Assembly (NCBI GenBank): GCA_014860805.1
Contig: JACZJB010000218.1
Location: forward strand, 1-33,767
Source: Anaerolineales bacterium
GTDB lineage: Bacteria > Chloroflexota > Anaerolineae > Anaerolineales > Villigracilaceae
Direction: 5' to 3'
Length of the DNA: 33,767 nt
Position numbers and translations under genes: made by a program. Positions 1,843-20,077 of this stretch are shown here, piece by piece (position 1 is the stretch's first letter; each line of letters begins with the position of its first letter). The notes under the pieces were generated by a model, which ran no database searches, was not told the origin of the DNA, and saw nothing but the letters and a program-made list of their open reading frames with translations.

Positions 1843-2844
1843 ATGAGAACCAATCTTTTCATTCTGGCGATTGTCACGTCGGCTCTGACAGCCTGCATGC
1901 AGTCGCCAGATTGCTTTAATAAAGATGTCTTTTGCGCCGCATTGGTGACCGACACCCTTGGCATTGACGATAACGGCTTAAATCAGAATACATGGGCAGG
2001 GTTGGAAGAAGCCTACTCGAACAAACTCGCTGACCGAATTGAATATATCGAGTCGGTGGACGCGCGCGATTATGAAAAGAACATCGCGTATTTTGCGGAT
2101 CAGGGCTTTGACATGATCTTCACCACCAACCCAACCCTGCGCGACGAATCGCTTCACGCCGCGGACCTGTATCCTGATTCTGTTTTCGTGGGCATGAACC
2201 AGGCTCAAAAAGAAACCCGCCCAAACCTGATTTCCATCACCTTTCCGGAAGACCAAATGGGATTCGCAGCCGGTGTATTGGCGGCAACGCTTACCAAAAC
2301 GGGTGTGGTCGGCGCTGTTTGCGAAACATCCGGCATCGATTCGATGTGGCGGTATTGCGAAGGGTTTCGTGCAGGAGCAGCATTTGCAAATCCTGAAATT
2401 AAAGTCATTGTTTTCTATCGTGATGATGGGGACAGCGAAAAATTATTTATAGATGAAGCCTGGGGATTTGAGTCAGCCAGCAAAGCCATTCAGCGCGGAG
2501 CAGATGTGATTTTCGCGGCGGGAGCCGTCACTGGGCAGGGAGCACTGCGCGCCGCTTCTGAGAAAGGCGTCCCGTCCATTGGAGTGGAACGTGATCAGGC
2601 GGCGGTTCTGGCAGAATCAGGTTCCAGCGTGGTGACTTCGATTTTGGGGCGAGCCAGTTTCGAGGTCCAGGAAGTGATGCGGCTGCTAAGGAATGGAATT
2701 GTTAGTGAGGCGAGGTCAGGTCAACTTGTAAATGTGCCATTTCATGGCAGTTTTCCCGAAAATTTTCAAAATGGGGCAGATTTTCTGCTTTTCAGCCTAT
2801 GGAACGGCGACTTGAAAACAAACGTGCCCCCGCAGAAACCTTAA
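1843..2844 (+). CDS. BMP-family substrate-binding lipoprotein (first copy)
   Basis: A 333-residue secreted lipoprotein: signal peptide 1-17, then a LTAC lipobox with the lipidated Cys at 18. The body is the Bmp/PnrA fold (PF02608), a periplasmic-binding-protein-like domain that delivers purine nucleosides or related solutes to an ABC importer. Family marks include FCAALVTD near residues 30-37, the LNQNTW segment, and a glycine-rich turn (VIFAAGAVTGQGAL) in the second lobe. It is clearly a paralogue of the next gene, and the two share a CxxxxxxC pair (C24 and C31) just after the lipobox and a near-identical C-terminus ending PPQKP. An AGGGG at 1833-1837 precedes the ATG. It diverges from its neighbour around the ligand-binding loop (NGLNQ against KSFNQ), so ligand preference may differ. 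Confidence 0.9.
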   Translation: MRTNLFILAIVTSALTACMQSPDCFNKDVFCAALVTDTLGIDDNGLNQNTWAGLEEAYSNKLADRIEYIESVDARDYEKNIAYFADQGFDMIFTTNPTLRDESLHAADLYPDSVFVGMNQAQKETRPNLISITFPEDQMGFAAGVLAATLTKTGVVGAVCETSGIDSMWRYCEGFRAGAAFANPEIKVIVFYRDDGDSEKLFIDEAWGFESASKAIQRGADVIFAAGAVTGQGALRAASEKGVPSIGVERDQAAVLAESGSSVVTSILGRASFEVQEVMRLLRNGIVSEARSGQLVNVPFHGSFPENFQNGADFLLFSLWNGDLKTNVPPQKP

Positions 2845-2856
2845 CATTGTAAATAC

Positions 2857-2885
2857 TTGCACAAAGATTGGACTAGATTTATACT
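2857..2885 (+). promoter_or_regulatory. Promoter of second BMP lipoprotein gene
   Basis: A TTGCAC -35 box at 2857-2862 and a TATACT -10 box at 2880-2885 are separated by exactly 17 bases. This is the best sigma-70-like promoter in the window and sits about 70 bases before the ATG at 2953. A direct repeat ATACTTGC occurs at 2853-2860 and 2881-2888, overlapping both boxes, which would suit a regulator binding site. Functional assignment is inferred from spacing and consensus only. Confidence 0.65.
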
Positions 2886-2908
2886 TGCAAAGTCGTTAGG
2901 CTTTGCAA
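2885..2908 (+). promoter_or_regulatory. Inverted repeat at transcription start (operator or leader hairpin)
   Basis: TTGCAAAG at 2885-2892 and CTTTGCAA at 2901-2908 form a perfect 8-base inverted repeat with an 8-base centre, starting at the last base of the -10 box. It could be an operator covering the start site or a hairpin protecting the 5' end of an abundant mRNA. The remaining leader is too short for known purine aptamers, and no riboswitch core was recognised. Confidence 0.45.
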
Positions 2909-2952
2909 AAAGCAAGCCATTTAATCTTTACTCTTCTAGAGGAGAAGAAAAT

Positions 2953-3999
2953 ATGAAAAAGCTGTACTTTGTTATGGCCCTTCTGATTGTCGCTTCGATG
3001 ATCCTTTCGGCCTGCGGTGCTTCTGCGCCGACCGCTGCAGATTGTACGAAAGAAGAAGTCTTCTGCGTTGGTCTCGTCACAGATGTTGGCAAGATCAATG
3101 ATAAGTCCTTCAACCAATCTGCTTGGGAAGGTGTTCAGAAGTCCAATGCTGATGGCGTTGCTGATGTGGTTCAATTTATCGAAACCGCCGACGCCAAGGA
3201 CTACGCCAAGAATATTGCCCAGTTCGGTGATGCCGGCTACGATGTAATCGTGACCGTTGGTTTTGGTCTCGGTGAAGCTACCGATGCCGCCGCTGCCACC
3301 TACCCGAATGTCCGCTTCATCGGCGTGGATCAATTCCAGGCTGAGACTGTCGCTGGCGTTTCCGGTTTGAACTTCCCCGAAGACAATGCTGGCTTCCTCG
3401 TTGGCGCTCTCGCCGCGATGATGTCCAAGAGCAACAAGATCGGCGCCGTCTGCGGTACCGATGTAGTTCCTCCCGTTTGGCGCTTTGGTGAAGGCTACAA
3501 AGCTGGTGCCGCTTATGCAGACGGCATGAATGGCACGACCACTGAAGTATTCGTTGTGTACCACAGCGATGTGGGCTTCGACAAGACCTTCACCGATCCT
3601 GAATGGGGCGCTCAGACCGCCAAGTCCATGATGGATCAGGGCGCAGATGCGATCTTCGGCTGCGGTGGTTTGACTGGTAACGGTGCTATCACCGCTGCTG
3701 CTCAGGCTGGTGCGTATGCCATCGGTGTGGACACTGATCAGTACCTGACCCTCCCCGAAGCTGCTCCTCGCATGCTCTCCAGCGCGATGAAGCTCATCAC
3801 CCCGGGCGTTGCTGACTTGATCAAAGCCACCAAAGACGGCTCGATTGCTGACGGAAACGTCTTCGGCGCCGCTGGCTATGCTCCCTTCCACGATCTTGAT
3901 GGCGAAGTTCCTGCCGAAGTCAAGGCTACCATGGAAGAAATCAAGGCCGGTTTGCTTGATGGCTCCATCACAACTGGTGTTCCCCCTGTCAAGCCGTAA
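2953..3999 (+). CDS. BMP-family substrate-binding lipoprotein (second copy)
   Basis: A 348-residue lipoprotein, the probable main receptor of the BMP-type ABC importer encoded just downstream. Signal peptide 1-20 with an ILSAC lipobox, lipid Cys 21. The Bmp domain (PF02608) shows FCVGLVTDVGKINDKSFNQ near residues 37-55 and the glycine-rich second-lobe turn (FGCGGLTGNGA). The ATG at 2953 is chosen over the in-frame start at 2857 because a strong AGAGGAGAA ribosome binding site lies directly before it and it yields a proper signal peptide; the upstream residues would disrupt it and overlap the promoter. Codon use is more biased here than in neighbouring genes, which suits high expression. A strong terminator follows. 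Likely ligands are nucleosides or related compounds, by family. Confidence 0.93.
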   Translation: MKKLYFVMALLIVASMILSACGASAPTAADCTKEEVFCVGLVTDVGKINDKSFNQSAWEGVQKSNADGVADVVQFIETADAKDYAKNIAQFGDAGYDVIVTVGFGLGEATDAAAATYPNVRFIGVDQFQAETVAGVSGLNFPEDNAGFLVGALAAMMSKSNKIGAVCGTDVVPPVWRFGEGYKAGAAYADGMNGTTTEVFVVYHSDVGFDKTFTDPEWGAQTAKSMMDQGADAIFGCGGLTGNGAITAAAQAGAYAIGVDTDQYLTLPEAAPRMLSSAMKLITPGVADLIKATKDGSIADGNVFGAAGYAPFHDLDGEVPAEVKATMEEIKAGLLDGSITTGVPPVKP

Positions 4000-4013
4000 G
4001 GTTTTTGCGATGT

Positions 4014-4052
4014 AAAAAAAGGGAAAGAGGCGTATGTCTCTTTCCCTTTTTT
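4014..4052 (+). terminator. Rho-independent terminator after BMP gene
   Basis: GGGAAAGAG at 4021-4029 pairs with CTCTTTCCC at 4038-4046 around an 8-base loop, extended by an A-run before and a T-run (4047-4052) after. The A and T runs make it potentially bidirectional. Its place between the binding-protein gene and the permease genes implies that the permeases are expressed by read-through or from a separate promoter. Confidence 0.85.
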
Positions 4053-4101
4053 GTTCCCTTTTTGAAACCTCTTTAAGGGGCTTGTCAGGCGGCTTGTTTG
4101 A

Positions 4102-4107
4102 TATAAT
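4102..4107 (+). promoter_or_regulatory. Candidate -10 box before ABC permease
   Basis: A perfect TATAAT stands 35 bases before the permease ATG. A TTGTCA at 4082-4087 could be the -35, but the spacer is only 14 bases, so this is a weak call. It would supply transcription after the preceding terminator. Confidence 0.35.
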
Positions 4108-4141
4108 TGTCCTACAATTCAAAGTTCCACTGGAGCGAAGG

Positions 4142-5269
4142 ATGCAATCAGAAAAGCAGTCAAATTCGCTATCAAGAAAAATACTGCAAGCCATTTCAGA
4201 TGCCAGTCTGGTTCCATTTCTGGCGATCTTAACTGCGGTAGTTCTTGGCGGCATTATCATCGCATTTGTAGGCGGAAATCCCTTCCTTGCCTATCGAGGG
4301 TTGATTGAAGGTTCATTCGGCTCAACGAAAGCGTTGAGTGAAACGGCTGTGTGGGCAACCCCCTACATCTTTGCAGGGCTGGCAGTTGCACTGGCTTTCA
4401 AAGGCGGCTTGTTCAATATTGGCGCTGAAGGTCAATTAGCCGTAGGCGCTGTTTCTTCAGCGTTGATCGGGTACGCGCTGCCGGAGTGGCTGGGTTTTTC
4501 TCTGCCCACCATCATCCACTTGCCGTTGGCTATTATCGCCGGCATGTTGATGGGCGGCATTTGGGCGGGAATTGTCGGCTGGCTAAAAGCATATACGGGC
4601 GGACATGAAGTTATCAACACAATCATGATGAACTACATTGCATTGAACACCACCTCGTTCCTGTTAAACGGCGTGATGAAAGACCGAAGTCCCACCAACG
4701 TGATCGCACGTACTCCCTTGATCGATGAAAGCGCGCGCATGCCCGCCATCTTCGAAGGCCTTCGGGTGCATTGGGGATTTGTTCTCGCCTTGTTTGTCGC
4801 CTTTTTCATTTGGTGGTTGTTGAACAAGACAACTCTGGGGTTTGAGATCCGCACAGTCGGACTGAATCCAGATGCTGCACAATATGCGGGAATCAATGTC
4901 AAACGCACAATTATTCTTACAATGGTGCTTTCAGGAATGCTGGCGGGGCTGGCGGGTTCCATCGAAGTGACCGGGCTGAACTACCGCCACGAACTTGGTT
5001 TTTCCATTGGGTATGGCTTTGATGCGATTGCAATTGCCCTGCTTGGAAAATCACACCCGCTTGGAATTGTACTGTCCGCCTTCCTTTTCGCTGCCATGCG
5101 CAACGGAGCAACCCGTATGCAATTCCTGACCCAAATGCCAGTCGATCTAATTTCGATGATACAAGCTCTGATCCTTCTTTTCGTCGCAGCCGATGCAATC
5201 ATACGATATATCTATCGGATCAAAGCCAAAGGCGAACGCGTCGTACTTACCCGCGGCTGGGGAGGCTAG
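4142..5269 (+). CDS. BMP/nucleoside-type ABC transporter permease 1
   Basis: A 375-residue inner-membrane permease of the BPD_transp_2 family (PF02653), as in bacterial nucleoside (NupP/BmpB-like) and branched-chain amino acid importers. It has about 8-10 hydrophobic segments. The hallmark FNIGAEGQ motif lies at 91-98 in the membrane core, and the conserved EVTGLNYRHELGFSIGYGFDAIAIALLG stretch (quoted here only by its start EVTGLNY and end IALLG) lies toward the C-terminus. The ATG at 4142 is preferred to the upstream in-frame start at 4034, which lies inside the terminator; a GGAG at 4132-4135 supports it. The stop codon overlaps the ribosome binding site of the second permease, so the two are translationally linked and form a heterodimeric channel. 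Confidence 0.92.
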   Translation: MQSEKQSNSLSRKILQAISDASLVPFLAILTAVVLGGIIIAFVGGNPFLAYRGLIEGSFGSTKALSETAVWATPYIFAGLAVALAFKGGLFNIGAEGQLAVGAVSSALIGYALPEWLGFSLPTIIHLPLAIIAGMLMGGIWAGIVGWLKAYTGGHEVINTIMMNYIALNTTSFLLNGVMKDRSPTNVIARTPLIDESARMPAIFEGLRVHWGFVLALFVAFFIWWLLNKTTLGFEIRTVGLNPDAAQYAGINVKRTIILTMVLSGMLAGLAGSIEVTGLNYRHELGFSIGYGFDAIAIALLGKSHPLGIVLSAFLFAAMRNGATRMQFLTQMPVDLISMIQALILLFVAADAIIRYIYRIKAKGERVVLTRGWGG

Positions 5270-5278
5270 GAGACAAAC

Positions 5279-6391
5279 ATGGACTGGAAACGATTTGGCT
5301 TTATTGCGCTAATCATTATTGTTCTTTTCAGCGTGGTCGTTATGGTAGGGCAGGCAAAGCAGCCGCCTTTGTTGATCGTCACAAGCATGCTGGCCACCAC
5401 CATTGCTGTGGCAACGCCTCTCACACTGGGGGCACTCTCGGGTGTATTCTGTGAACGATCAGGGGTGGTCAACATCGGCATCGAAGGTATGATGCTCACC
5501 TCTGCGTTCTTCGGCTGGCTGGGCGCCATCTATATGTTCCATATTTTCAAACTTCCGCCCAGTGTCAGCATTGTTCTCGGCGTGGTATTTGCCATCCTCA
5601 CAGGCGCCTTGATGTCTTTGCTTCATGCCGCGCTCTCCATCACCTTCAAAGTGGACCAGATCATCGGCGGAACAGTGATCAACATCCTTGCCGTTGGTTT
5701 GACGGGATTTTTGAATCGCCAGTTGTTTTTTGGAGCAACCAGCGTCTTCAAAGGAAGCGTTCCAAGTTCCCCCGGCGTTCTGCCCACCATCCACATCCCC
5801 ATCACAGAACTGTTTGCATCTGCCTGCGGGACTTCTGCAACCTGTTTACAAAACGTGCAAGCCATCAATCGCGTATTTGACCAAAAACCGATTGCCATGG
5901 GTGCCGTTCTCTTGGTGTTTTTCTCCCACTATATTTTATTCAATACCCGTTGGGGCTTGCGTACCCGCGCCGTCGGTGAACATCCCAAAGCTGCGGATAC
6001 TGTTGGAATCAATGTTGTCTTCATGCGCTATGCAAATGTTCTCATCGGCGGCATGTTTGCCGGGCTGGCGGGAGCATACTTCACCATTGAATCAGTTCCA
6101 TCCTTCGAGCCTTTACTCACAAATGGACGCGGTTTCATTTCCCTTGCCGCCATGATCTTCGGTAACTGGACACCAATTGGAGCCTGGGCTGCCTCCCTGG
6201 TATTTGGCGCTTCCCAAGCCTTGCTGATCAACATGCAGATATTTCGTGATGTTATTCCGCCGCAATGGTCATTCCTGCAGGAATCCTATATCGTGGGACT
6301 TACTCCTTACATTCTCACCATGTTCATCCTGACTGGCATCATCGGTAAAACCACATCCCCCGCCGCAGACGGCGTTCCATACGAAAAATAG
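5279..6391 (+). CDS. BMP/nucleoside-type ABC transporter permease 2
   Basis: A 370-residue partner permease of the same BPD_transp_2 family (NupQ/BmpC-like). The N-terminal half carries CERSGVVNIGIEGMM at 58-72, the paired version of the motif in permease 1, and an intramembrane QIIGGTVINI segment that matches the nucleoside branch rather than branched-chain amino acid permeases. An insertion with two cysteines (CGTSATC) lies in an extracytoplasmic loop near residues 180-190. The AGGAG ribosome binding site overlaps the previous stop codon, and its own stop overlaps the ribosome binding site of the ATPase gene, giving a compact three-gene unit. Confidence 0.92.
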   Translation: MDWKRFGFIALIIIVLFSVVVMVGQAKQPPLLIVTSMLATTIAVATPLTLGALSGVFCERSGVVNIGIEGMMLTSAFFGWLGAIYMFHIFKLPPSVSIVLGVVFAILTGALMSLLHAALSITFKVDQIIGGTVINILAVGLTGFLNRQLFFGATSVFKGSVPSSPGVLPTIHIPITELFASACGTSATCLQNVQAINRVFDQKPIAMGAVLLVFFSHYILFNTRWGLRTRAVGEHPKAADTVGINVVFMRYANVLIGGMFAGLAGAYFTIESVPSFEPLLTNGRGFISLAAMIFGNWTPIGAWAASLVFGASQALLINMQIFRDVIPPQWSFLQESYIVGLTPYILTMFILTGIIGKTTSPAADGVPYEK

Positions 6392-6400
6392 GAGACCGCC

Positions 6401-7930
6401 ATGTCTGAACCTCAAATTGTTCTCGAAGCAAAAGGCATCACAAAGCAATTCCCCGGCGTGCTCGCCAGTGACAATGTCAACTTTGATCTGCGTAAAGGCG
6501 AGATCCATGCCCTGCTCGGCGAAAACGGCGCGGGAAAAAGCACCTTAATGAATTTGATCTACGGCCTGCACCGTCCGGACAAAGGCGAGATCATCGTCAA
6601 CGGCAAACAATTAGATGTCCAATCCCCAAACGACTCAATTGCGGCTGGCATTGGCATGGTGCATCAACACTTCATGCTCATCCCCGTCTTCACTGTTGCG
6701 GAAAATGTCATGCTCGGTGATGAAGTCACAAAACGCGGCGCACTCGACCGTGTAACTGTTGCCGAAAAAATAACCGAGATCTCCAAACAATATGGCCTTG
6801 ACGTCGACCCGAACGCTTTGGTTGGCCCCCTGCCTGTGGGCATTCAACAACGCGTTGAAATTGTCAAAACCCTATATCGCAATGCAGAGATTGTGATCCT
6901 TGATGAACCCACCGCAGTGCTGACTCCGCAGGAAGCAGAAGACCTCTTCCGCATCATGCGGGATCTGACAGCGCGCGGCGTTTCCATCATCTTCATCACG
7001 CACAAACTTAAGGAAGTTCTTGCCGTGGCAGACCGCATCACTGTCATGCGTGCGGGACGTGTCATCAACACCGTTAAACCATCTGAGACCGATTCCGCTC
7101 AATTGGCAAACATGATGGTTGGCCGTCAGGTCATCCTCACTGTGGACAAGAAAGACCATGAAGCCCACGAAGATATCCTCAAAGTGGAAGGGCTTTCTGT
7201 ACGCGACCAACGCAACCTGGAAACAGTCCACAACGTATCCTTCACAGTCCGTGGCGGCGAAGTACTCGGCATCGCCGGCGTGCAAGGCAATGGACAAACC
7301 GAACTTTCCGAAGCGCTCACCGGGCTGCGCCACCCCACCAGCGGAAAAGTTACCATCGACGGAAATGACCTAACTGGCAAATCGCCACGGGTCATTACCG
7401 AAGCAGGCCTGGCTCACATCCCCGAAGACCGCCAGCGCCACGGGCTCGTACTTTCCTATTCTGTTGCAGACAACATGGTGCTTTGCGATTACTATCATGC
7501 GCCTTTTAGTTCTCGCGGCGTCATTCAGCCAAAAGCGCTCGATGAAAACTCGCGCAAACTCATCAACGCATTTGATGTGCGCACACCGTCCCCCTTCGTC
7601 AATGCGGGCAAACTCTCTGGGGGCAATCAGCAAAAAGTGATCGTGGCGCGCGAGTTAAGTCGCAGCAACGTAAAGCTTGTCGTTGCCAATCAACCCACTC
7701 GCGGCCTAGATGTCGGCTCCATCGAATACATCCACAGCGAGATCATCAAAATGCGCGATCGCGGCGTGGCAGTTCTGCTCATCTCCGCCGAGTTGGATGA
7801 GATCATGGCGCTCTCCGACCGCATCGCAGTTATGTATCGCGGCCAGATCGTCGCGGTTGTGGATGCAAAAAAGACCACCCGTGAACAACTAGGATTGTGG
7901 ATGGCTGGCGCGCACGTCGAAACCGTCTGA
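6401..7930 (+). CDS. BMP/nucleoside-type ABC transporter ATPase (two NBDs)
   Basis: A 509-residue cytoplasmic ATPase with two fused nucleotide-binding domains, the energy source of the importer. NBD1 is complete: Walker A GENGAGKST at 40-48, signature region LPVGIQQRVEI at 144-154, Walker B ILDEP at 166-170, switch His 201. NBD2 has a changed Walker A (GVQGNGQTE, 293-301, lacking the usual GKS/T), an intact LSGGNQQK at 405-412, and a Walker B ending ANQPTRGLD at 429-437 in which the usual Asp-Glu is Asn-Gln. That asymmetry is normal in the NupO/YufO branch, where only one composite site hydrolyses ATP. A GGAG at 6391-6394 sets the start. A terminator follows, closing the transporter operon. 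Confidence 0.95.
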   Translation: MSEPQIVLEAKGITKQFPGVLASDNVNFDLRKGEIHALLGENGAGKSTLMNLIYGLHRPDKGEIIVNGKQLDVQSPNDSIAAGIGMVHQHFMLIPVFTVAENVMLGDEVTKRGALDRVTVAEKITEISKQYGLDVDPNALVGPLPVGIQQRVEIVKTLYRNAEIVILDEPTAVLTPQEAEDLFRIMRDLTARGVSIIFITHKLKEVLAVADRITVMRAGRVINTVKPSETDSAQLANMMVGRQVILTVDKKDHEAHEDILKVEGLSVRDQRNLETVHNVSFTVRGGEVLGIAGVQGNGQTELSEALTGLRHPTSGKVTIDGNDLTGKSPRVITEAGLAHIPEDRQRHGLVLSYSVADNMVLCDYYHAPFSSRGVIQPKALDENSRKLINAFDVRTPSPFVNAGKLSGGNQQKVIVARELSRSNVKLVVANQPTRGLDVGSIEYIHSEIIKMRDRGVAVLLISAELDEIMALSDRIAVMYRGQIVAVVDAKKTTREQLGLWMAGAHVETV

Positions 7931-7966
7931 CACTCGCATCATCCTTAATCTCGAAACGGATTCAAC

Positions 7967-7995
7967 AAACAGGAGTTTTGACTACTCCTGTTTTT
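7967..7995 (+). terminator. Terminator of the ABC transporter operon
   Basis: AAACAGGAGT at 7967-7976 pairs perfectly with ACTCCTGTTT at 7984-7993 around a 7-base loop, with a run of T at the end. It separates the transporter from the lipoprotein cluster. Confidence 0.8.
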
Positions 7996-8070
7996 GATTC
8001 CCGCAGCAGCCAGGAACAGGTAATTTTATTCTTGCGGTAAAATATTTAAGAAATAAAGGAGAGAAAAAAC

Positions 8071-8964
8071 ATGAACAAGAAAAAACATATATTCCACCCG
8101 CTGATCATTGCCATGCTGTTTCTTGGCGCATGCAACCTTCCTTCAGGCAGCCAGAGCGAAGAGGCCGGCCTCACCGCCGCCGCACAGACTGTGGAGGCTT
8201 TGCTCAGCGCAACCCCGGCAATAACCAACACGAACTCTCCGCTCCCCGTCACTGAAACACTGACGCCCACCCCTTTGACAATTAATACAAATACCCCGAT
8301 TGCATCGGCCACATCGAACTGCAATGTGATGCAATTCGTTTCAGATGTAACCATCCCTGATGGGACGATCATCACTCCCGGACAAACCTTTACAAAAACA
8401 TGGCGGCTGCGGAATGGCGGCACCTGCACGTGGACTCCTGCCTATGCCATCGTATTTTCTGATGGGAATTCCATGAATGGACCGACGACCCAGGCGCTTG
8501 CGGGCAACGTCAACCCTGGCCAAACCGTGGATATTTCGGTTAACTTGACCGCACCAGCCACTCCCGGCGATTACACCGGCAGCTGGAAAATACGAGACGC
8601 GGCTGGCGTTCTGTTCGGAAGATTCTACGTGCAGATCAAATCCCAGAATCCCGCCACTGCTACAAATACATCTGCTCCTCCCTTCGCAGTAACCAGTGTT
8701 AATTTTACAAATTCGGGTGGCTGTGGAAACTTTACGGCAACCGCCAACATCACTACCAATGGAGCAGGTACAGTAAACTTTCATTGGATCAGAAGCGATG
8801 GAGCCACCCCTCCCGTTCCACCAGCGCTTGTGTTTGCCTCCGCTGGAACCCAATCTGTCAACATTTCGTGGGCAACAACAGCTGCGGGGACTCACTGGTT
8901 TGATGTCTATATAGATTCACCCAATAATCAGCAATTCGGCAGGGCTTCGTTTACCTGTCCGTAA
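8071..8964 (+). CDS. Lipoprotein with NBR1-type Ig-like domain (A)
   Basis: A 297-residue surface lipoprotein of unknown function, first of five related genes. Signal peptide 1-20, lipobox LGAC with lipid Cys 21; a short Ala/Thr-rich segment (about 32-48); a Pro/Thr/Asn linker to about 82; then the NBR1-type (four-tryptophan, N_BRCA1_IG-like) Ig domain at about 84-189, with W111, W121, W172 and an aromatic F186 in the fourth position. C84 and C119 probably form a disulfide. Residues about 205-297 form a second beta-rich module with two more cysteines (C218 and C296). A GGAG at 8058-8061 precedes the ATG. Its own terminator follows, so it may be a single-gene transcript. The family annotation is by pattern; no ligand is known. 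Confidence 0.85.
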   Translation: MNKKKHIFHPLIIAMLFLGACNLPSGSQSEEAGLTAAAQTVEALLSATPAITNTNSPLPVTETLTPTPLTINTNTPIASATSNCNVMQFVSDVTIPDGTIITPGQTFTKTWRLRNGGTCTWTPAYAIVFSDGNSMNGPTTQALAGNVNPGQTVDISVNLTAPATPGDYTGSWKIRDAAGVLFGRFYVQIKSQNPATATNTSAPPFAVTSVNFTNSGGCGNFTATANITTNGAGTVNFHWIRSDGATPPVPPALVFASAGTQSVNISWATTAAGTHWFDVYIDSPNNQQFGRASFTCP

Positions 8965-8986
8965 AGATTAGCAGGTGTTAATAGTG

Positions 8987-9016
8987 GAGCGCCCGGTTTT
9001 CCGGGCGCTCTTTTTT
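8987..9016 (+). terminator. Rho-independent terminator
   Basis: GAGCGCCCGG (8987-8996) and CCGGGCGCTC (9001-9010) pair perfectly around a TTTT loop, followed by six T residues. A very strong GC-rich terminator for lipoprotein gene A. Confidence 0.92.
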
Positions 9017-9021
9017 AACAG

Positions 9022-9027
9022 TATAAT
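9022..9027 (+). promoter_or_regulatory. Candidate -10 box for lipoprotein gene B
   Basis: A perfect TATAAT directly after the terminator of gene A and 25 bases before the ATG of gene B. No convincing -35 element is present, since that position falls inside the terminator stem. Similar TATAAT boxes precede other genes of the window. Confidence 0.4.
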
Positions 9028-9052
9028 AATTTCGGTATATGAAAGGAAAAAA

Positions 9053-10003
9053 ATGACCCGAAAAACAAATTTTTTACTTTTTAGCATTACAACAATAACA
9101 AGCCTGCTGATTGCCTCCTGCGGAGCAAACACCTCCACAGGAGATGCCACAGCGGTCATTCAGACATCTGTTGCGCAGACGGTTGCTGCACAGAACACAC
9201 TTCAAGTTCCAGACACCGAAACACCCTCTGCGGCAGCCATTCCCACCAAAACGCCCTTCCAGCAGTTGACCCCGCTTGCGCCGCTTGCATCCCCTTCGCC
9301 GACATTTCCTGTTAACTCATCCTATTCCCAGTGCGCCAGCGCAAGCCTGAAAAGCGAAAATATCGTGGACGGCACAGTCTTCAAACCCGGTGAACAATTT
9401 ACCAAGACATGGGAGATCACAAACACAAGCACCTGCGTATGGGATACAAACTACAAGATTATTTTCTGGGATGGTGATCTTTTGGGTGGAGGATATGTCT
9501 ATAACCTGCCCCAAGTTGTTGGCCCCGGACAAACTCTGCCGATCTCGCTTGTTCTGATTGCCCCCGCAACAGATGGAACCTATCGTTCCGAATGGAAACT
9601 TCAGACGCCTGATAACAACAACTTCGGCGTGGGTTATTTGAATTCAGCTTTTTACACAGAGATCGCCGTTTCATCGGCGCAAAAGCCAAAATATGGAATC
9701 GCATCTGTGGTAACGAGCTATACCCGCGACCCAAAGACAGGCTGTCCTGCCAATACATTGATTACCGTTTACGCCACTGTAGCGACCACCGGGCCGCTCG
9801 AGTTCACCTACAATTGGAACCAAAGCGACGGCAATAACTCAAGCTCAAAAGGATACTTTATGGAATCCGCAACCACCAAAACGTTTACCCGCGAATGGAA
9901 ATTTGGGCGCGCAAATACGCAAGGTCCCAAATGGATCGCGTTTGTGATCACGGAACCCATCAAACAAAAATATCAAGTGGATTTTGAGTTTGTCTGTCCA
10001 TAA
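9053..10003 (+). CDS. Lipoprotein with NBR1-type Ig-like domain (B)
   Basis: A 316-residue lipoprotein with the same plan as its neighbours. Signal peptide 1-22, lipobox IASC with Cys 23; Ala/Thr/Gln-rich segment about 32-48; Pro/Thr linker to about 90; NBR1-type Ig domain about 94-206 with W120, W130 and W181 and the cysteine pair C94/C128. The C-terminal part (about 213-316) resembles that of protein A in position and in its paired cysteines, ending FVCP where A ends FTCP. The ATG at 9053, with AAAGGA at 9042-9047, is chosen over the in-frame start at 8975, which lies before the terminator and lacks a signal peptide. Function unknown; adhesion or glycan binding at the cell surface is a guess. 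Confidence 0.85.
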   Translation: MTRKTNFLLFSITTITSLLIASCGANTSTGDATAVIQTSVAQTVAAQNTLQVPDTETPSAAAIPTKTPFQQLTPLAPLASPSPTFPVNSSYSQCASASLKSENIVDGTVFKPGEQFTKTWEITNTSTCVWDTNYKIIFWDGDLLGGGYVYNLPQVVGPGQTLPISLVLIAPATDGTYRSEWKLQTPDNNNFGVGYLNSAFYTEIAVSSAQKPKYGIASVVTSYTRDPKTGCPANTLITVYATVATTGPLEFTYNWNQSDGNNSSSKGYFMESATTKTFTREWKFGRANTQGPKWIAFVITEPIKQKYQVDFEFVCP

Positions 10004-10029
10004 AGATACAACGCCTTGTTAACCCAACT

Positions 10030-10077
10030 AATACTGCCATAGATTTTACAACTGAGCGTAAAATCTATGGCAGTATT
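10030..10077 (+). terminator. Long perfect hairpin after lipoprotein gene B
   Basis: A perfect 20-base-pair stem (10030-10049 with 10058-10077) around an 8-base loop AACTGAGC. It is followed by CTTATTAATTTT rather than a clean T-run, so it is an untidy terminator or an mRNA-stabilising hairpin. The position just after the stop of gene B favours termination. Confidence 0.65.
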
Positions 10078-10146
10078 CTTATTAATTTTGCAGGAACCAT
10101 TTACACCTTCCGTTCGTCTTAATTTGGAACACCTAACGGAGGAACC

Positions 10147-11433
10147 ATGTTATCCAGAAAATTAACCATTAGTTTCTCAGTCTTTGTAATTTTGATCGCC
10201 CAACTGGCTTGCAATGCCCCGGGGAATTCCGCGACCCCGGATACATTCGCAACCCTCAATGGACTCTACACCGCCTCAGCCCAAACCCTGGAAGCTGCCG
10301 GCACACAAACGGGCTTTACCGTCACGCCCGGCCTGCCCCTGCCAACCGCCACGGTCGGCACATCACTTCCAGCCACGAACACTGTCACTTCAGGAGGATC
10401 AGGCACGGTGTCCAGATGTGATGCGGCGCAGTTCCTTGGCGATGTCACCTACCCGGATGGAAGCCTTGTAGCAAGGAACAATACTTTCGTCAAAATCTGG
10501 CGCATCAAAAACGTGGGGACATGCACATGGACAAAATCCTATGCGCTTGTGTTCACAGGCGGAGATCCCCTGAGCGGTCCGTCTGCGGTGGCGCTTGCGG
10601 GCAACGTAAACCCCGGGCAGTATATCGAAATTCCCGTTACTTTCACTGCTCCAGGTAAAGATGGGAGTTATCGCGGTTATTGGAAGTTGCGCAATACCGC
10701 CGGCACTTTATTTGGAATTGGAAACCTGGCAGACACGGCATTTTGGGTGGACATTAGAGTTGGAGGTCCCTCCTATGCCGCCTTTAATTTTGCGAATAAT
10801 TACTGCAGCGCGGAATGGTCCAACGGCAGTACAGCACTTCCCTGCCCTGGAGCAGATGGAGACTCGAAAGGTTTCGTGCTGAAATTGGATGCGCCGAAAT
10901 TGGAGGATGGCTCTACTGACAATGAGCCCGGTTTGCTGACAGTTCCGCAGGATAAAAACAACGGTTTTATCAGCGGACAATTCCCCTCTTTTACTGTGCA
11001 GACAGGAGATCGTTTCCGGACGCTTGTCAATTGTCAGTACAATGCAAAGAAATGCAATGTAGTTTTCCGCCTGGATTATAAAGTTGGCGGGAACACAAAA
11101 ACGCTGGCCAGCTGGCAGGAAGTGTATGAAGGAAAATACTACCCAGTTGACCTAGATCTCAGCAGTCTGGCGGGGCAAAGTGTGAAATTTATCCTTGTGG
11201 TAAGTGCAAATGGCGGAAATAACAATGACTATGCCATCTGGCTTAATCCGCATATTATCCGGCAGGGAAATCCGCCGCCCACTCAGACTCCTTCCCAGAC
11301 TCAGACACCCACTGCTACTGGTACAGTGACATTGACACCGACGATCACCGCGACATCGACAGCTACTTCGACTTTCACACCCACTGCCACCTCTACTGAG
11401 ACGCCGACACCCACAAATACACCTACTCCATAG
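10147..11433 (+). CDS. Lipoprotein with NBR1-type Ig-like domain, second beta domain and Pro/Thr tail (C)
   Basis: A 428-residue lipoprotein, the largest of the five. Signal peptide 1-21, lipobox QLAC with Cys 22; Thr/Ala-rich segment about 34-56; Pro/Thr linker; NBR1-type Ig domain about 91-205 keeping all four tryptophans (W118, W128, W179, W200) and the pair C91/C126. Residues about 211-374 form a further beta-sandwich-like domain with C220, C233, C296 and C303; its end (FILVVSANGG then DYAIWLNP) resembles NPCBM-type carbohydrate-binding modules. The last ~55 residues are an unstructured Pro/Thr tail that runs to the stop codon. GGAGG at 10138-10142 marks the ATG. The tail could be a glycosylation site or a spacer through the wall; that is inference. 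Confidence 0.85.
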   Translation: MLSRKLTISFSVFVILIAQLACNAPGNSATPDTFATLNGLYTASAQTLEAAGTQTGFTVTPGLPLPTATVGTSLPATNTVTSGGSGTVSRCDAAQFLGDVTYPDGSLVARNNTFVKIWRIKNVGTCTWTKSYALVFTGGDPLSGPSAVALAGNVNPGQYIEIPVTFTAPGKDGSYRGYWKLRNTAGTLFGIGNLADTAFWVDIRVGGPSYAAFNFANNYCSAEWSNGSTALPCPGADGDSKGFVLKLDAPKLEDGSTDNEPGLLTVPQDKNNGFISGQFPSFTVQTGDRFRTLVNCQYNAKKCNVVFRLDYKVGGNTKTLASWQEVYEGKYYPVDLDLSSLAGQSVKFILVVSANGGNNNDYAIWLNPHIIRQGNPPPTQTPSQTQTPTATGTVTLTPTITATSTATSTFTPTATSTETPTPTNTPTP

Positions 11434-11450
11434 GTGCGTTATATAATGCC

Positions 11451-11488
11451 CACGGTCACAAATTGCGATAGCGCAATTTGTGACCGTG
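11451..11488. repeat. Perfect 17-bp inverted repeat between two TATAAT boxes
   Basis: The left arm (11451-11467, starting CACGGTCACA) and right arm (11472-11488) are perfect complements around the 4-base centre ATAG. No T-run follows, which argues against a simple terminator. One TATAAT lies 3 bases before it (11442-11447) and another 5 bases after it (11494-11499), so it fills the -35 region of the promoter for lipoprotein gene D. It may be an operator, or an upstream terminator that relies on another mechanism. Confidence 0.7.
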
Positions 11489-11493
11489 ACGGG

Positions 11494-11499
11494 TATAAT
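11494..11499 (+). promoter_or_regulatory. Candidate -10 box for lipoprotein gene D
   Basis: TATAAT 28 bases before the ATG at 11528. The usual -35 position lies within the right arm of the inverted repeat, so either a regulator binds there or a non-standard promoter is used. Confidence 0.4.
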
Positions 11500-11527
11500 A
11501 AAGATAACCATTTTTGGAGGCTACAAT

Positions 11528-12265
11528 ATGATTTCTCGCAAGTCAATTTGGCTGGCAGGTGTAATGGTGTTTACTGTTGCCCTGAGTGCATGCAACATGG
11601 GAGCCACTCCACCACCCACAGTGGACCCGGGTGTGATACAGACGCAGGCGTTTGGCGCTGTGCTTACCCAGGCTGCACTGGACCAGACACAAACTGCCCA
11701 GGCACTTCCCCCGACCGCTCAGCCGACTGATACTCCACAGCCTACAGCTACGTCCGGCTTAATCCCTACAGCAGGGGCTTTTAGCACAAACACACCGTTT
11801 GCTTTCAATACTCAACAACCCGGACTGACCCCCTTGGTCCTGCCATCCGTCGCGCCAACTGCGGGAGCTTATTCCACACTACCAACAACGAACGGTTGTA
11901 ATGACGGCTGGTTTATTGGAGAATCCACCCCATATGACGGCGCCACCCTTCTGGCTGGCAGGGAAATGATAAAGACATTCGAAATACTGAACACAGGTAC
12001 CTGCACCTGGGATGAAGGATACTCGTTCTCCTTCCGTCCAGAATATTCAAGCAGCCCGGAAGGCGCTGGGATTGGATACTACGGAAAGGATGAATTTATT
12101 CTTGGCACAAGCCCAATCAAACCCGGTCAGACAGGGGTTTTCAAGATAAACTTCACAGTACCAAGGAAATTGGGCGAATACGTTTGGGCATGGAAATTAA
12201 AAGATGATGCCGGCGCATTGTTTGGCTCGCTCGTCTTCATGAAGTTCACTGCCGTGGAACAGTAG
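11528..12265 (+). CDS. Lipoprotein with NBR1-type Ig-like domain (D)
   Basis: A 245-residue lipoprotein. Signal peptide 1-21, lipobox LSAC with Cys 22; Gln/Ala/Thr-rich segment about 36-60; a long Pro/Thr linker to about 118 containing the near-repeat LIPTAGAFST / VAPTAGAYST; NBR1-type Ig domain about 124-242 with W161 and W222, F151 in place of the first tryptophan, F237 in place of the fourth, and the pair C124/C159. No further domain follows. The ATG at 11528 with GGAGG at 11516-11520 is chosen over the in-frame start at 11480, which lies in the right arm of the inverted repeat. The next gene's ribosome binding site overlaps the stop codon, so D and E are coupled. Confidence 0.85.
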   Translation: MISRKSIWLAGVMVFTVALSACNMGATPPPTVDPGVIQTQAFGAVLTQAALDQTQTAQALPPTAQPTDTPQPTATSGLIPTAGAFSTNTPFAFNTQQPGLTPLVLPSVAPTAGAYSTLPTTNGCNDGWFIGESTPYDGATLLAGREMIKTFEILNTGTCTWDEGYSFSFRPEYSSSPEGAGIGYYGKDEFILGTSPIKPGQTGVFKINFTVPRKLGEYVWAWKLKDDAGALFGSLVFMKFTAVEQ

Positions 12266-12275
12266 GAGAGAAACC

Positions 12276-12890
12276 ATGAAAAACAGATCGTCCGTTTACA
12301 TGCTAATGATCGCCTTCCTGCTTGCCGCTTGCGCGCCCGCCACGCCGATTGAGCCAACGCCGGATGTTAATGCAATCCGCACTTCAGCGGCCAACACAGT
12401 GGTGGCAGAGTTTACGTTGACCGCCGCCGCGTTCACCCCCACCTCCCAGCCGCCAACTGAAACGCCCACCCCTGAAGTTCCCACAGAAACCCCCACCACT
12501 GCGTTTTCAACCGACCCCACCCAAATTGCATTAGGCACACCGGGCGTGCTCTGCGACAACCTCTCTTTTGACAACGCGACTGTGGATGTCACCATTCTGG
12601 ATGGCACAGCGATGACACCCGGTCAGGAATTCGTAAAAACCTGGAAGATCAAAAATATAGGCTCCTGTGCCTGGGGAGATGGGTACAGATTGACGTTTTC
12701 TTACGGCGAACGCATGGATGGACAACCCATTCCGCTTGGCACTGTCGTTCAGGTTGGGCAGGAAGTGGATATATCCGTCAGTTTCAAAGCGCCAACTGCC
12801 ATTGGTGAATACACAAGCGCATGGCAGATGGCCAATGCCGCTGGAGTGACATTCGGCAAAGCCGTCTTTGTCAAAATTATTGTCCAGTAA
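12276..12890 (+). CDS. Lipoprotein with NBR1-type Ig-like domain (E)
   Basis: A 204-residue lipoprotein, the smallest of the five. Signal peptide 1-18, lipobox LAAC with Cys 19; Ala/Thr-rich segment about 32-52; Pro/Thr/Glu linker to about 85; NBR1-type Ig domain about 93-204 with W123, W133, W183, F198 in fourth position, and the pair C93/C131. The domain reaches the C-terminus. AGGAG at 12264-12268 overlaps the stop of gene D. The queG reading frame begins 2 bases after this stop, so the last lipoprotein genes and queG may share one mRNA; that does not imply a shared function. Confidence 0.85.
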   Translation: MKNRSSVYMLMIAFLLAACAPATPIEPTPDVNAIRTSAANTVVAEFTLTAAAFTPTSQPPTETPTPEVPTETPTTAFSTDPTQIALGTPGVLCDNLSFDNATVDVTILDGTAMTPGQEFVKTWKIKNIGSCAWGDGYRLTFSYGERMDGQPIPLGTVVQVGQEVDISVSFKAPTAIGEYTSAWQMANAAGVTFGKAVFVKIIVQ

Positions 12891-12892
12891 AT

Positions 12893-13927
12893 TTGACCGA
12901 GCTAAAACAAGCCATTAAGGAAAAAGCACGCCAGCTGGGATTTATCCTGGCTGGCGTTACTTCTTGTGATCCGCCTGAACATTTCAACATCTTCGAAGCG
13001 TGGCTTAGCGAAAACAAACACGGGACGATGAATTATCTTGCCTCGGAACGCAGCCGCATCCGCCGTGCAGACCCGAAACAAATTCTCCCTGAATGTAAAT
13101 CCATTCTTGTTCTCGCGCTGCCATACCCGCCGCTTTCACAAAAAAAAGAGGATGAATTTCAAATCGCTGCCTATGCCCGTGGCGATGATTATCACGATAT
13201 CATCCCTCCCCGTTTGAAACAAATCGTTGAATTCATCGAAGAACAAATCGGCAGTCCAATCGCCAGCCGCTATTACACAGACACTGGTCCCATCCTCGAA
13301 CGTGAACTCGCCCAACGCGCAGGGCTGGGTTGGATCGGTAAAAATTCCATGCTCATCAACCCGCAGGCAGGCTCCACATTTTTCCTGGCCGAAATTTTGC
13401 TTGGCATCGAACTTGAACCCGATGAACCCCTCACCACCGATCATTGCGGCACCTGCACCCGCTGCATCGACGCCTGCCCCACCCAATGCATTCTGCCAGA
13501 CCGCACCCTCGAAGCACGCCGCTGCATCTCCTACCTCACCATTGAACTCAAAGACGAAATCCCAGAAGAACTGAGACCGCAAATGGAAAATTGGATTTTC
13601 GGCTGCGACATTTGTCAGCAGGTTTGCCCGTGGAATCGATTTTCTCTCCCGCCAGATTCTGCCTTCGAAACGAAAATCCCGCTTCCTGTCTTAACCTCGG
13701 ACCTGCTTCTGTCATCCGTTGAATTTAATCAACGCTTCAAGAATAGTCCCGTCAAACGCTCCAAACGGCGCGGCTATCTGAGGAATTTATCAGTTGCGGT
13801 TGGACATAATGGGAATGAAAAAGATATGCAACTCCTTGAACAAGCCGCGCAGGATGAAGAGCCATTGATCAGAACGCATGTAAAATGGGCAATCCAAAAA
13901 ATAACGGAAGGTTCACAAACGCCGTGA
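12893..13927 (+). CDS. queG: Epoxyqueuosine reductase
   Basis: A 344-residue cytoplasmic iron-sulfur, cobalamin-dependent enzyme that reduces epoxyqueuosine to queuosine in tRNA, the last step of queuosine synthesis. It has the N-terminal QueG domain with the conserved YYTDTGP motif (catalytic Asp 130), the cluster motif C185xxC188xxC191xxxC195, and the second set C238, C241, C245 (FGCDICQQVCPWN), giving two 4Fe-4S clusters, followed by a HEAT-like tail (EEPLIRTHVKWAI). The start is uncertain: the TTG at 12893, two bases after the previous stop, gives the normal N-terminus; the only upstream ATG (12821) lies inside lipoprotein gene E. No clear ribosome binding site is seen, so translational coupling is likely. 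Confidence 0.93.
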   Translation: MTELKQAIKEKARQLGFILAGVTSCDPPEHFNIFEAWLSENKHGTMNYLASERSRIRRADPKQILPECKSILVLALPYPPLSQKKEDEFQIAAYARGDDYHDIIPPRLKQIVEFIEEQIGSPIASRYYTDTGPILERELAQRAGLGWIGKNSMLINPQAGSTFFLAEILLGIELEPDEPLTTDHCGTCTRCIDACPTQCILPDRTLEARRCISYLTIELKDEIPEELRPQMENWIFGCDICQQVCPWNRFSLPPDSAFETKIPLPVLTSDLLLSSVEFNQRFKNSPVKRSKRRGYLRNLSVAVGHNGNEKDMQLLEQAAQDEEPLIRTHVKWAIQKITEGSQTP

Positions 13928-14523
13928 AAAAACTTCTTATTGCAACCAACAACAAGGGCAAAGTAAAAGAATTACAGCAGCTGTTAAAAGATTCTGGGTT
14001 TGAACTGGTCACTCCTGCGGACATTAAATTAACGCTTGAAGTTGAGGAAGACGGCAAGAACTACTCTGAAAATGCCGCAAAAAAAGCCATTGCCTTTGCC
14101 AATGCCAGCGGACTCATCTCTCTTGCAGACGACTCCGGGCTTGAAGTGGAAGCTCTTAATGGCGCACCCGGGCTTTACTCTGCGCGCTATTCTCCCAAGC
14201 CTGGCGCAAATGATGCCGACCGACGCACATTTCTGCTGCAAAATCTACAAGATAAACCGCGTCCGTGGAAAGCACACTTCCATGCCACGATTGCAATTGC
14301 AAAACCATCCGGAGAGGTGGAGGTAGCCGAGGGTAATTGCTTCGGCGAGATCATTCCCGTGGAACGCGGCACTGGCGGCTTTGGATATGACCCTATTTTT
14401 TTGCTTCCCAAACTGGACCAAACCATGGCAGAGTTGGATATGGAACATAAAAACCGTCTCAGCCATCGCGCGCTGGCGGTTATGAATGCGTTACCTATCT
14501 TGACAAAATTATTTGGGGAATAA
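13924..14523 (+). CDS. RdgB/HAM1 family dITP/XTP pyrophosphatase
   Basis: A 199-residue cytoplasmic housekeeping enzyme that hydrolyses non-canonical purine triphosphates (ITP, dITP, XTP) to monophosphates and keeps them out of nucleic acids. Family marks are the N-terminal LLIATNNKGKVKEL (4-17), SENAAKKA (48-55), the catalytic ADDSGLEV (68-75), GGFGYDPIF and the C-terminal LSHRALA. The GTG at 13924 overlaps the TGA of queG by four bases (GTGA) and gives the standard length and N-terminus. An ATG at 13885 would add 13 residues with no ribosome binding site. The gene ends two bases before the stop of the convergent hydrolase gene. The symbol rdgB would fit but is left out because paralogous names vary. 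Confidence 0.95.
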   Translation: MKKLLIATNNKGKVKELQQLLKDSGFELVTPADIKLTLEVEEDGKNYSENAAKKAIAFANASGLISLADDSGLEVEALNGAPGLYSARYSPKPGANDADRRTFLLQNLQDKPRPWKAHFHATIAIAKPSGEVEVAEGNCFGEIIPVERGTGGFGYDPIFLLPKLDQTMAELDMEHKNRLSHRALAVMNALPILTKLFGE

Positions 14524-14525
14524 GG

Positions 14526-15374
14526 TCAAAGGACCGAATTCTGCTTTTGAACAGAATCAGCTTCTCCGTCAGTGACGAGGCGCACTTTTACCGGTTTCCT
14601 ACGAGAGACCGGAAGCCCGTCCAAAAATTTCTTCAACAAGTCCGCGACTTCGTCAGGCTTTTCAATCATCACCATATGACCTGCGCCTTCCAGAATGTGA
14701 AGCGTGGATTTGGCAATCCCATCCCGCAGAGCTTCAGAAAGCTTTGGAGGCATCATCTTATCTTCTGCACCGCAAACAATGAGGGTTGGCTTCTTTATTT
14801 TCTCAAGCTGTTCCATTACATTGAATTCATTGCATGCAAGAAAGTCTCCAAGCAAAACAGGCGGGCGTATTTTCAGCATGCTTTGTTCTGAAAGTTGAAG
14901 CAGGTTTTGCTGAACGTTTTCACTGAAACAGCTGGCATTGATCGAAGCCACAGCGGATTGAAAAGTGTTCGGGGTTCCCACATTTTCAAGAATAGTTTGA
15001 GCCACGCGCATTTTTGCGCCGCTGCCCAACAAAACCAACGCTTTAACTTTCCCGGGATATTTCAAAGCAAGGGTAAGCGCAATGGCGCCGCCCATTGATA
15101 TCCCAGTAATGACTGCAGCGCGAATTTTGAGAGACTGCATAAATGTGATCACATCGTCTGCATAGGCGTCAATGGATTGTTTCCCCACGCCTTCAGACTG
15201 TCCGTGACCGGGCAGGTCAAGCGCATAAATAGTTTCGCCGGCCAGCCTGCGGATTTGAGGCGGCCAGGATAAATGATTACCGCCCGCGCCATGAAGAAGG
15301 ATAACGGGCGGGCGATTGGGCTTCGCATCTTCCGCCACATGGGCAAAATAATTTAATCCGGCGGAGATCGGCAT
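14526..15374 (-). CDS. Alpha/beta hydrolase
   Basis: A 282-residue alpha/beta-hydrolase-fold protein (PF00561/PF12697 type). The oxyanion-hole HG is at 29-30, the DLPGHGQS strand-turn at 53-60, the nucleophile elbow GISMGG at 91-96 with Ser 93, the acid probably Asp 205 in CGAEDKMMPP, and the catalytic His 233 in GAGHMVMIEKP. The triad is complete, so it should be an active esterase, lactonase or carbon-carbon hydrolase; the substrate cannot be told. No signal peptide is seen, so it is probably cytoplasmic. Its ATG overlaps the stop of the histidine kinase by one base (TAATG), which indicates translational coupling in a two-gene operon. The last ~30 residues are basic and look like an extension beyond the fold. 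Confidence 0.85.
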   Translation of the reverse strand: MPISAGLNYFAHVAEDAKPNRPPVILLHGAGGNHLSWPPQIRRLAGETIYALDLPGHGQSEGVGKQSIDAYADDVITFMQSLKIRAAVITGISMGGAIALTLALKYPGKVKALVLLGSGAKMRVAQTILENVGTPNTFQSAVASINASCFSENVQQNLLQLSEQSMLKIRPPVLLGDFLACNEFNVMEQLEKIKKPTLIVCGAEDKMMPPKLSEALRDGIAKSTLHILEGAGHMVMIEKPDEVADLLKKFLDGLPVSRRKPVKVRLVTDGEADSVQKQNSVL

Positions 15375-19287: not shown

Positions 19288-19289
19288 TT

Positions 19290-20072: not shown

Positions 20073-20077
20073 GTACT

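Follow-up and report, generated by a model that had tools for sequence, protein, structure and literature searches.

A conserved five-gene array of predicted FW-domain lipoproteins in Anaerolineales with an exchangeable C-terminal domain in its first member

Introduction

The FW domain is the signature domain of NBR1, which is described as the archetypal selective-autophagy receptor (PMC9582228), and the way in which FW recognizes a protein N-terminus is on record for a fungal protein. The pocket of Chaetomium Nbr1 that holds the N-terminal Gly-Gly of Ams1 consists of F651, D654, D658, W672, L762, and W763; Ala at F651, D654, D658, or W763 abolishes binding, and R743 is needed as well (PMC9233695). 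The same source reports weak binding of the Ams1 peptide by the FW domain of human NBR1 and describes contacts outside the pocket as not universally conserved. FW domains in bacteria, including chloroflexi, were already noted in 2012 (Marchbank, PMC3357945), among them XRE-FW proteins that join FW to a DNA-binding domain. Here, we describe five consecutive genes, A to E, on the plus strand at 8071-12890 of a 33,767-nucleotide stretch of DNA from an Anaerolineales bacterium (GenBank assembly GCA_014860805.1, contig JACZJB010000218.1), referred to below as the window. The genes span 4.8 kb, and each encodes a predicted lipoprotein with one FW domain. Their order is conserved in related genomes, and the C-terminal domain of A is exchanged between close relatives.

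The products of A-E resemble the FW domains of human ILRUN, human NBR1, and Chaetomium Nbr1 in sequence, in predicted fold (modeled for A and C), and in a pocket that is largely kept. Unlike these proteins, they are predicted to be exported and lipidated, and they carry a conserved Cys pair. A Pfam search of A-E returned FW only. The lack of PB1, ZZ, and UBA domains sets them apart from the NBR1 autophagy receptor, and no XRE domain was found. They share the presence of FW in bacteria with the XRE-FW proteins of PMC3357945 but are predicted secreted lipoproteins arranged in an array. Gene A also recalls the polymorphic toxins, in which a constant N-terminal part is followed by a C-terminal domain swapped by recombination (PMC3482391). 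However, the t1 tail of A (defined below) and the C tail are modeled as beta-sandwich folds, no Pfam toxin domain was found in the tails of A, B, and C or in t2, an alternative tail of A, and the A|B gap of 88 bases leaves no space for an immunity gene beside the A tail.

An earlier reading of the same DNA, made from the letters alone (the original prediction), had called the bacterial role of the domain undescribed. Within the open-licence literature searched, this holds for the function of bacterial FW proteins, and no description of the array or of the A-tail exchange was found there; the presence of FW in chloroflexi and the fungal binding mode were already on record in the sources cited above. 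We propose, with a probability of roughly 0.42, that A-E form a conserved surface-recognition array in which FW domains would clamp protein N-termini, extra binding modules would lie outermost, and the tip of A would be exchanged.

Results and Discussion

The assignment of an NBR1-like immunoglobulin (Ig) domain to all five products was borne out by a hidden Markov model search. PF16158 (N_BRCA1_IG) matched each protein at 49.7 to 93.3 bits, above the curated cut-off of 28 (E-values in Table 1). AlphaFold models of A and C had a predicted local distance difference test score (pLDDT) above 90 over most of the folded parts and low values in the linker. Both models show the six-strand Ig-like sandwich of ILRUN and NBR1, and the best fold match of both FW domains was human ILRUN (6vhi), with Z scores of 16.9 and 16.2 over 107 and 108 aligned residues for A and C, respectively, and a root-mean-square deviation (rmsd) of 1.4 Å each. 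The four Trp columns common to three eukaryotic structures were compared by eye; C retains 4/4, A, B, and E retain 3/4 with Tyr or Phe in the fourth column, and D retains 2/4. The Cys pair (C84 and C119 in A) is conserved in the bacterial proteins; its second Cys is Ala or Val in the three eukaryotic sequences, and its first lies outside the aligned part. A phmmer search with A matched human ILRUN at 1.6e-16 and NBR1 at 1.9e-10. By this search, ILRUN is closer to A than NBR1 is, an observation that bears on the origin of the eukaryotic domain.

The common plan of the five proteins also agreed with the original prediction. Each begins with a predicted signal peptide bearing a lipobox-like site, and a short Ala/Thr segment and a Thr/Pro linker lead up to a single PF16158 domain. 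The sites were assigned by pattern match, and lipidation is predicted. The sites read GAC in A, ASC in B, SAC in D, and AAC in E; the QLAC site of C is atypical at -3 and was matched only by a looser pattern, not by the first one. The ATG starts at 9053 for B and 11528 for D are likelier than the first in-frame GTG in either gene. Beyond FW, the modules of A and B are related to each other and about 105-110 residues long (profile-profile 99%), C carries a CBM51-like domain of about 170 residues followed by a Thr/Pro tail, and D and E end in FW itself, with 3 and 1 residues after the domain, respectively. This division of the C-terminal ends had been foreseen, down to a carbohydrate-binding-like domain in C; the CBM51 likeness is one of fold and not of profile. 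A segment resembling T-x-A-A-x-T-V-x-A was observed about 10-20 residues past the predicted lipidated Cys in A, B, C, and E and in looser form in D. The segment recurs on contig C62, in an FW protein with a membrane anchor, and is a helix of low confidence in the C model.

Pocket residues were read from alignment rows above 100 bits (two B rows dropped), with gap rows left out (one each in B and C). All 69 A rows have F or Y at 651, D or E at 654, D at 658, W at 672, and an aromatic residue at 763. C rows are aromatic at 651, D or E at 654, and D at 658 (88/88 each), with W at 672 in 89/89 and an aromatic residue at 763 in 88/89. B holds D or E at 654 and D at 658 in 67/67 rows and an aromatic residue at 763 in 56/68. 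E has D at both acidic positions in 60/60 and an aromatic residue at 763 in at least 42/60. D retains the acids in 59/62 (D or E at 654) and 61/62 (D at 658) rows. Judged by sequence on the acids D654/D658 and the aromatic walls F651/W763, A and C keep the pocket, B and E keep the acids with weaker walls, and D keeps it in part. We infer that the bacterial FW domain would bind free N-termini outside the cell.

Conservation of the array was examined in 80 loci, the best 80 of 435 relatives of C, a set biased toward C-bearing arrays. The loci were titled Anaerolineales or other Chloroflexota and came nearly all from metagenome-assembled genomes (MAGs). The order was exactly ABCDE in 47 loci, and four more with a doubled or split member bring the count to 51/80. 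Among the 29 loci without the full order, 8 are partial arrays ended by a contig edge within about 1.1 kb, and 7 (L119 and L128-L133) hold only two or three C-like domains and are other FW proteins. When eight genomes of the genus were viewed match by match, five genes in a row were seen in 6 (in G131 with B in fragments), G126 was split 3+2, and G106 began at a contig edge with B-E. Ten genomes of the family viewed in the same way gave five in a row in 6, a split array in G037, three matches in G003, and no five-in-row run in G006 and G018. With 5 of the 18 FW matches of the source genome in one 4.8-kb run and the same order in most relatives viewed, the clustering is beyond chance. Absence of a profile match and scattered occurrence without a conserved array, the two results that the original prediction had named as counting against it, were both looked for and neither was found.

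An FW-domain tree (129 domains, 115 columns) placed A, B, C, D, and E in one group each of 14-15 rows, with support of 79, 94, 93, 95, and 87, respectively; 55 further rows, a few of them inside B and D, were uncounted, and many forks were unresolved. Because A-E group by position across genomes, the positions are orthologous by sequence and the array is old, predating the genera compared. The same grouping led us to reject a single recent tandem duplication, and the idea of a toolkit made by duplication is not upheld in the sense of a fresh one.

The varied ends of the array proved more variable than had been claimed, since the end of A differs between close relatives. Fourteen aligned A orthologues have a C-terminal part of three mutually unalignable kinds (t1, t2, and t3). 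By profile-profile comparison, t1 is akin to the B tail (99%) and t3 to the C tail (99.9%); t2 vs t1, t2 vs t3, and t1 vs t3 are all below 3%. A total of 83 A proteins comprised 42 with t1, 21 with t2, 14 with t3, and 6 with no tail. B kept its own kind in 82/82 rows with a tail of at least 25 residues, and C in 103/104 (exception L136). These counts pool the 80 loci and further A-E proteins, some from the same genomes, with duplicates present and tails below 25 residues uncounted. The t1 model of A is Ig-like, and no function was assigned from it because its fold matches are only middling (Z about 8-9). The t2 subgroups are about 30% identical to each other, and t2 gave nothing credible against Pfam. 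Donor cassettes for t2 within the source genome were considered and set aside, the best match being weak (E 0.009).

Tail type was mapped on trees of 58 rows, namely 57 of the 80 loci and the window (t1 32, t2 16, t3 10); omitted were 19 loci with other orders and L120, L121, L122, and L127, whose A has no tail. On the B+C+D+E tree, tail type needs 18 changes, the minimum possible being 2, and well-supported branches force at least 11 changes for t1, 11 for t2, and 5 for t3. The A-FW tree also needs 18, with 6, 6, and 4 forced, respectively. Tested alone, t2 shows no clustering, as few changes being found in 275/500 shuffles. Each of the six possible pairings of FW form with tail type is represented. 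Different A tails were found in the close pairs L114/L074, L111/L105, and L082/L076, which are 86%, 83%, and 77% identical in B-E and 91%, 88%, and 93% identical in the A FW domain, respectively. In DNA alignments of close relatives, identity collapses where the FW domain and linker end, stays low until roughly the stop codon, and returns at the A|B hairpin. This repeated exchange of the outer domain suggests a recognition surface pressed to vary.

Pairs 80-99.5% alike in B-E numbered 19, of which 4 differed in tail type; the A tail of the 15 same-type pairs averaged 74% identity, and the other seven parts 87-91%. Where B-E are 50-65% alike, tails of A that share a type are still 55% identical, with the B tail at 40%. 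The A tail therefore tracks relatedness less closely, which is what a shared pool would produce. Identity of the tail correlates only weakly with that of B-E (0.43 for t1 and 0.30 for t2). The window and its nearest relative, L057, both carry t1, and their DNA is 64.0% identical in the A-tail core, 94.8% in FW, 94.3% in the A|B gap, and 94.2% in B, with the limit that L057 is a low-coverage MAG contig in which a chimera is possible. Over 79 codons of the tail core, 28 synonymous and 26 nonsynonymous codons differ; over 191 codons of the A N-terminal part and FW, the counts are 27 and 11. The C|D gap of this pair is 42.6% identical (94 columns), the B|C gap 87.5%, and C and D above 91%. Because synonymous codons differ too and the edges of the A-tail block are sharp, the block speaks for recombination. 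Hypermutation by a diversity-generating retroelement was considered and set aside on the same features, a reading made with no search for a reverse transcriptase and no tally of the substitutions by base.

The tail survey was extended to 57 genomes of the genus, counted by eye with thresholds set after gaps in the scores were seen (t2 above 100 bits, next lower 31; t1 at least 79 bits, next lower 57), and some matches were not traced to the array. Strong t2 matches were present in 19 genomes and strong t1 matches in 38; both occurred in 3 and neither in 3, leaving 51 with exactly one. In G129 and G130, an A with t2 adjoins an A with t1 (L147:4113-6398 and L148:134-2443), and G131 has both types, its t1 lying elsewhere in a protein with no FW match. 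A double A is also present in L095. Because of the tandem pairs in G129 and G130, duplication followed by loss is counted as one route of tail change.

The C tail model (residues 209-374) has the CBM51 fold, matching 7jrl with a Z score of 14.8 and an rmsd of 2.4 over 136 aligned residues. Its predicted fold is that of the CBM51 modules 7jrl, 2vmh, and 2vng, but identity to them is at most 18% and no Pfam match rises above cut-off; NPCBM scored E 0.11, below cut-off. From the model, the C tail may bind glycans.

PF16158 is widespread in this group. Matches were found in 150/150 sampled genomes of the family, with up to 21 copies in one genome, and, in a sample of the phylum, in 62/201 genomes at E <=0.001 and 50/201 above cut-off; 0/14 control genomes had one. 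Other FW proteins of the source genome have FW followed by CAP or SdrD_B, repeat the FW plus C-tail unit twice, or end in FW, as several do. FW is, by sequence, a general module of predicted exported proteins there. The suggestion that the array is a system in its own right is upheld for its conservation and tempered by its place in this larger FW set and by its probable division into several transcription units. Individual cases observed in the source genome were a CAP domain after FW at L139:11836-12861, SdrD_B-like repeats after FW at L140:5194-6411, and a lipoprotein-like protein with an SBP_bac_3 (amino-acid-type) domain followed by two FW domains at L142:2658-4319 (contig C154).

We envisage the following arrangement for the proposed surface-recognition array. 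Each product would be lipid-anchored, with its Ala/Thr segment and flexible Thr/Pro stalk presenting FW. Judging from the pocket residues, FW would most likely bind partner proteins or peptides through a free N-terminus, as fungal Nbr1 FW does. The outer domain beyond FW would be Ig-like in A (t1), Ig-like in B by its relation to t1, and CBM51-like in C. The outer domain of A would be one of three alternatives, swapped by recombination or by duplication and loss, and its tip would differ from one close relative to the next, the behavior expected if a recognition surface were being diversified under pressure from glycans, phages, predators, or kin. Five genes with a near-invariant pocket offer a concrete, testable ligand hypothesis for bacterial FW. 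The A tip adds an example of alleles switching by whole domains at a single locus, in bacteria represented here almost entirely by metagenome assemblies, and its exchange could point to what Anaerolineales cells recognize or evade.

Several results weigh against this proposal. Function, exposure, and ligand are drawn from sequence and models, and the pocket residues may be kept for folding. B has Leu at the F651 position in 55/68 rows, the first strand of E has an insertion that makes its F651 equivalent uncertain, and D has decayed at W763, with an aromatic residue in 29/62. At the R743 position, R occurs in 22/89 C rows and does not rank among the six most frequent residues in A, B, D, or E; this loss fits the view of PMC9233695 that contacts outside the pocket vary. 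Tail type is partly clustered by descent, as few changes being reached in 1/200 shuffles, and t3 tails follow species (correlation of 0.86 with B-E identity). In distant pairs of one type, moreover, A tails have diverged less than B tails. Stem-loops between genes suggest several units and the array is split over two places in G126 and G037, which weakens the case for joint function of A-E.

FW could instead be a rigid beta-sandwich spacer that holds the outer domain off the membrane while the tails do all the binding. The retention of FW in A as its tail changes and the placement of FW before CAP and SdrD_B in the source genome would fit such a role. We consider it unlikely, though. D, E, and several more proteins of this kind stop at FW and have nothing to present, the solute-binding fusion has its two FW domains at the C-terminus, and the acids and aromatic residues of the pocket hardly vary in A and C, unlike in D. 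A role of A-C as accessory capture proteins of the upstream PnrA-type transporter, holding nutrient nearby, appears improbable. A permease or ATPase gene lies upstream of A in 50/65 A-bearing loci (2 of the 50 more than 1.5 kb away), the same genome encodes a fusion of a solute-binding protein with two FW domains, and the split arrays leave A and B (G037) and A, B, and C (G126) with the transporter. However, the genes downstream are also conserved, which makes plain synteny a possible explanation of the association, and nine A-bearing loci with upstream room show no transporter gene there; the other 6 of the 15 loci lacking one have less than 600 bases of upstream contig.

The five genes might also be old paralogues kept by synteny, with their own jobs and no joint system, the tails going back to at least two ancestral A genes that were lost differentially. 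Probable separate transcription units, split arrays, the tandem A(t2)-A(t1) pairs, the double A in L095, and the t3 tails that follow species all agree with it. Yet exactly one of t1 and t2 is strongly matched in most genus genomes, tails flip among loci 77-86% alike in B-E and 88-93% alike in A FW, the blocks are clean and bounded by high identity, FW form and tail type combine in all six ways, and t1 and t2 tails track B-E identity weakly; we rate this explanation as rather unlikely. A bolder version of the surface-recognition proposal, to which we give only limited credence, makes A a trans-species polymorphic recognition locus in which the FW clamp stays constant; homologous recombination, with the FW codons and the A|B hairpin as anchors, would move three unrelated outer domains and their divergent alleles around. 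Such circulation would resemble that of allele pools where phages, predators, or kin recognition put a locus under pressure. If this were true, the NBR1/ILRUN domain would have an ancient role in bacteria, that of a receptor for N-terminal peptides outside the cell.

Neighboring Genes and Transcription Units

Coordinates of the array and its neighbors are collected in Table 1. In most loci, the array is flanked by the PnrA-type ABC transporter on one side and by queG and Ham1 on the other. Where a transporter gene lies upstream of A, the nearest one is the ATPase in 25 loci and a permease in 25, reflecting two gene orders. QueG lies within 1.5 kb downstream of E in 51/60 E-bearing loci, and 3 of the other 9 have less than 700 bases left. 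Downstream genes often kept are queG and Ham1, with an abhydrolase, a histidine kinase, and an O-antigen ligase-like gene also often present.

Table 1. Positions of the array genes, their parts, and neighboring features in the window.
Feature	Position	Strand	Description	Support
Gene A	8071..8964	+	predicted lipoprotein, linker, FW domain, exchangeable C-terminal domain (t1 here)	PF16158 1.8e-26
A FW domain (N_BRCA1_IG)	8320..8643	+		PF16158 1.8e-26; model vs 6vhi
A C-terminal t1 Ig-like domain	8644..8961	+	core 8700-8945
Terminator-like stem-loop between A and B	8986..9011	+
Gene B	9053..10003	+	predicted lipoprotein, FW 9332-9670, Cys-containing tail 9671-10000 akin to A t1	PF16158 7.8e-21
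Terminator-like stem-loop between B and C	10030..10077	+
Gene C	10147..11433	+	predicted lipoprotein, FW 10417-10761, CBM51-like jelly-roll ~10762-11271, Thr/Pro-rich end	PF16158 7.4e-23
Gene D	11528..12265	+	predicted lipoprotein, divergent FW 11897-12253 at end	PF16158 6e-13
Gene E	12276..12890	+	predicted lipoprotein, FW 12552-12884 at end	PF16158 6.7e-26
PnrA/BMP-type ABC (ATP-binding cassette) transporter	1843..7930	+	2 substrate-binding proteins, 2 permeases, ATPase	Pfam Bmp, BPD_transp_2, ABC_tran
queG-like gene	~12893-13927	+	downstream neighbor	Pfam
Ham1-family gene	13885-14523	+	downstream neighbor	Pfam

Stems of at least 8 pairs were found in 56/59 A|B gaps and 55/65 B|C gaps, compared with 1/59 and 5/65 after one plain shuffle per gap. 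C|D and D|E gaps had such stems in 11/58 and 2/54, compared with 1 and 0 after shuffling, respectively. A TANAAT element was present in 58/59 A|B, 4/65 B|C, 58/58 C|D, and 4/54 D|E gaps, counted with no shuffle control. A scan of window positions 6300-14600 found no excess of terminator-like sites (8 vs a shuffle mean of 10.9) or promoter-like sites (4 vs 7.3), and the case for the stem-loops therefore rests on their conservation across gaps. The array probably consists of several transcription units, and A, B, C, and D-E, perhaps with queG, would be the likely ones. A single operon was set aside given the conserved stem-loops in the A|B and B|C gaps. By eye, a long inverted repeat was seen near a TATAAT-like site in the C|D gap (11434-11527).

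Searches of the window found no Rfam match and nothing above cut-off in NCBIfam. Farther downstream, 17213-20087 on the minus strand holds genes for an O-antigen ligase-like protein, a Wzz-like protein (under its cut-off), and a family 2 glycosyltransferase, and looks like the start of a surface polysaccharide cluster. The ligase-like gene adjoins the array in many relatives.

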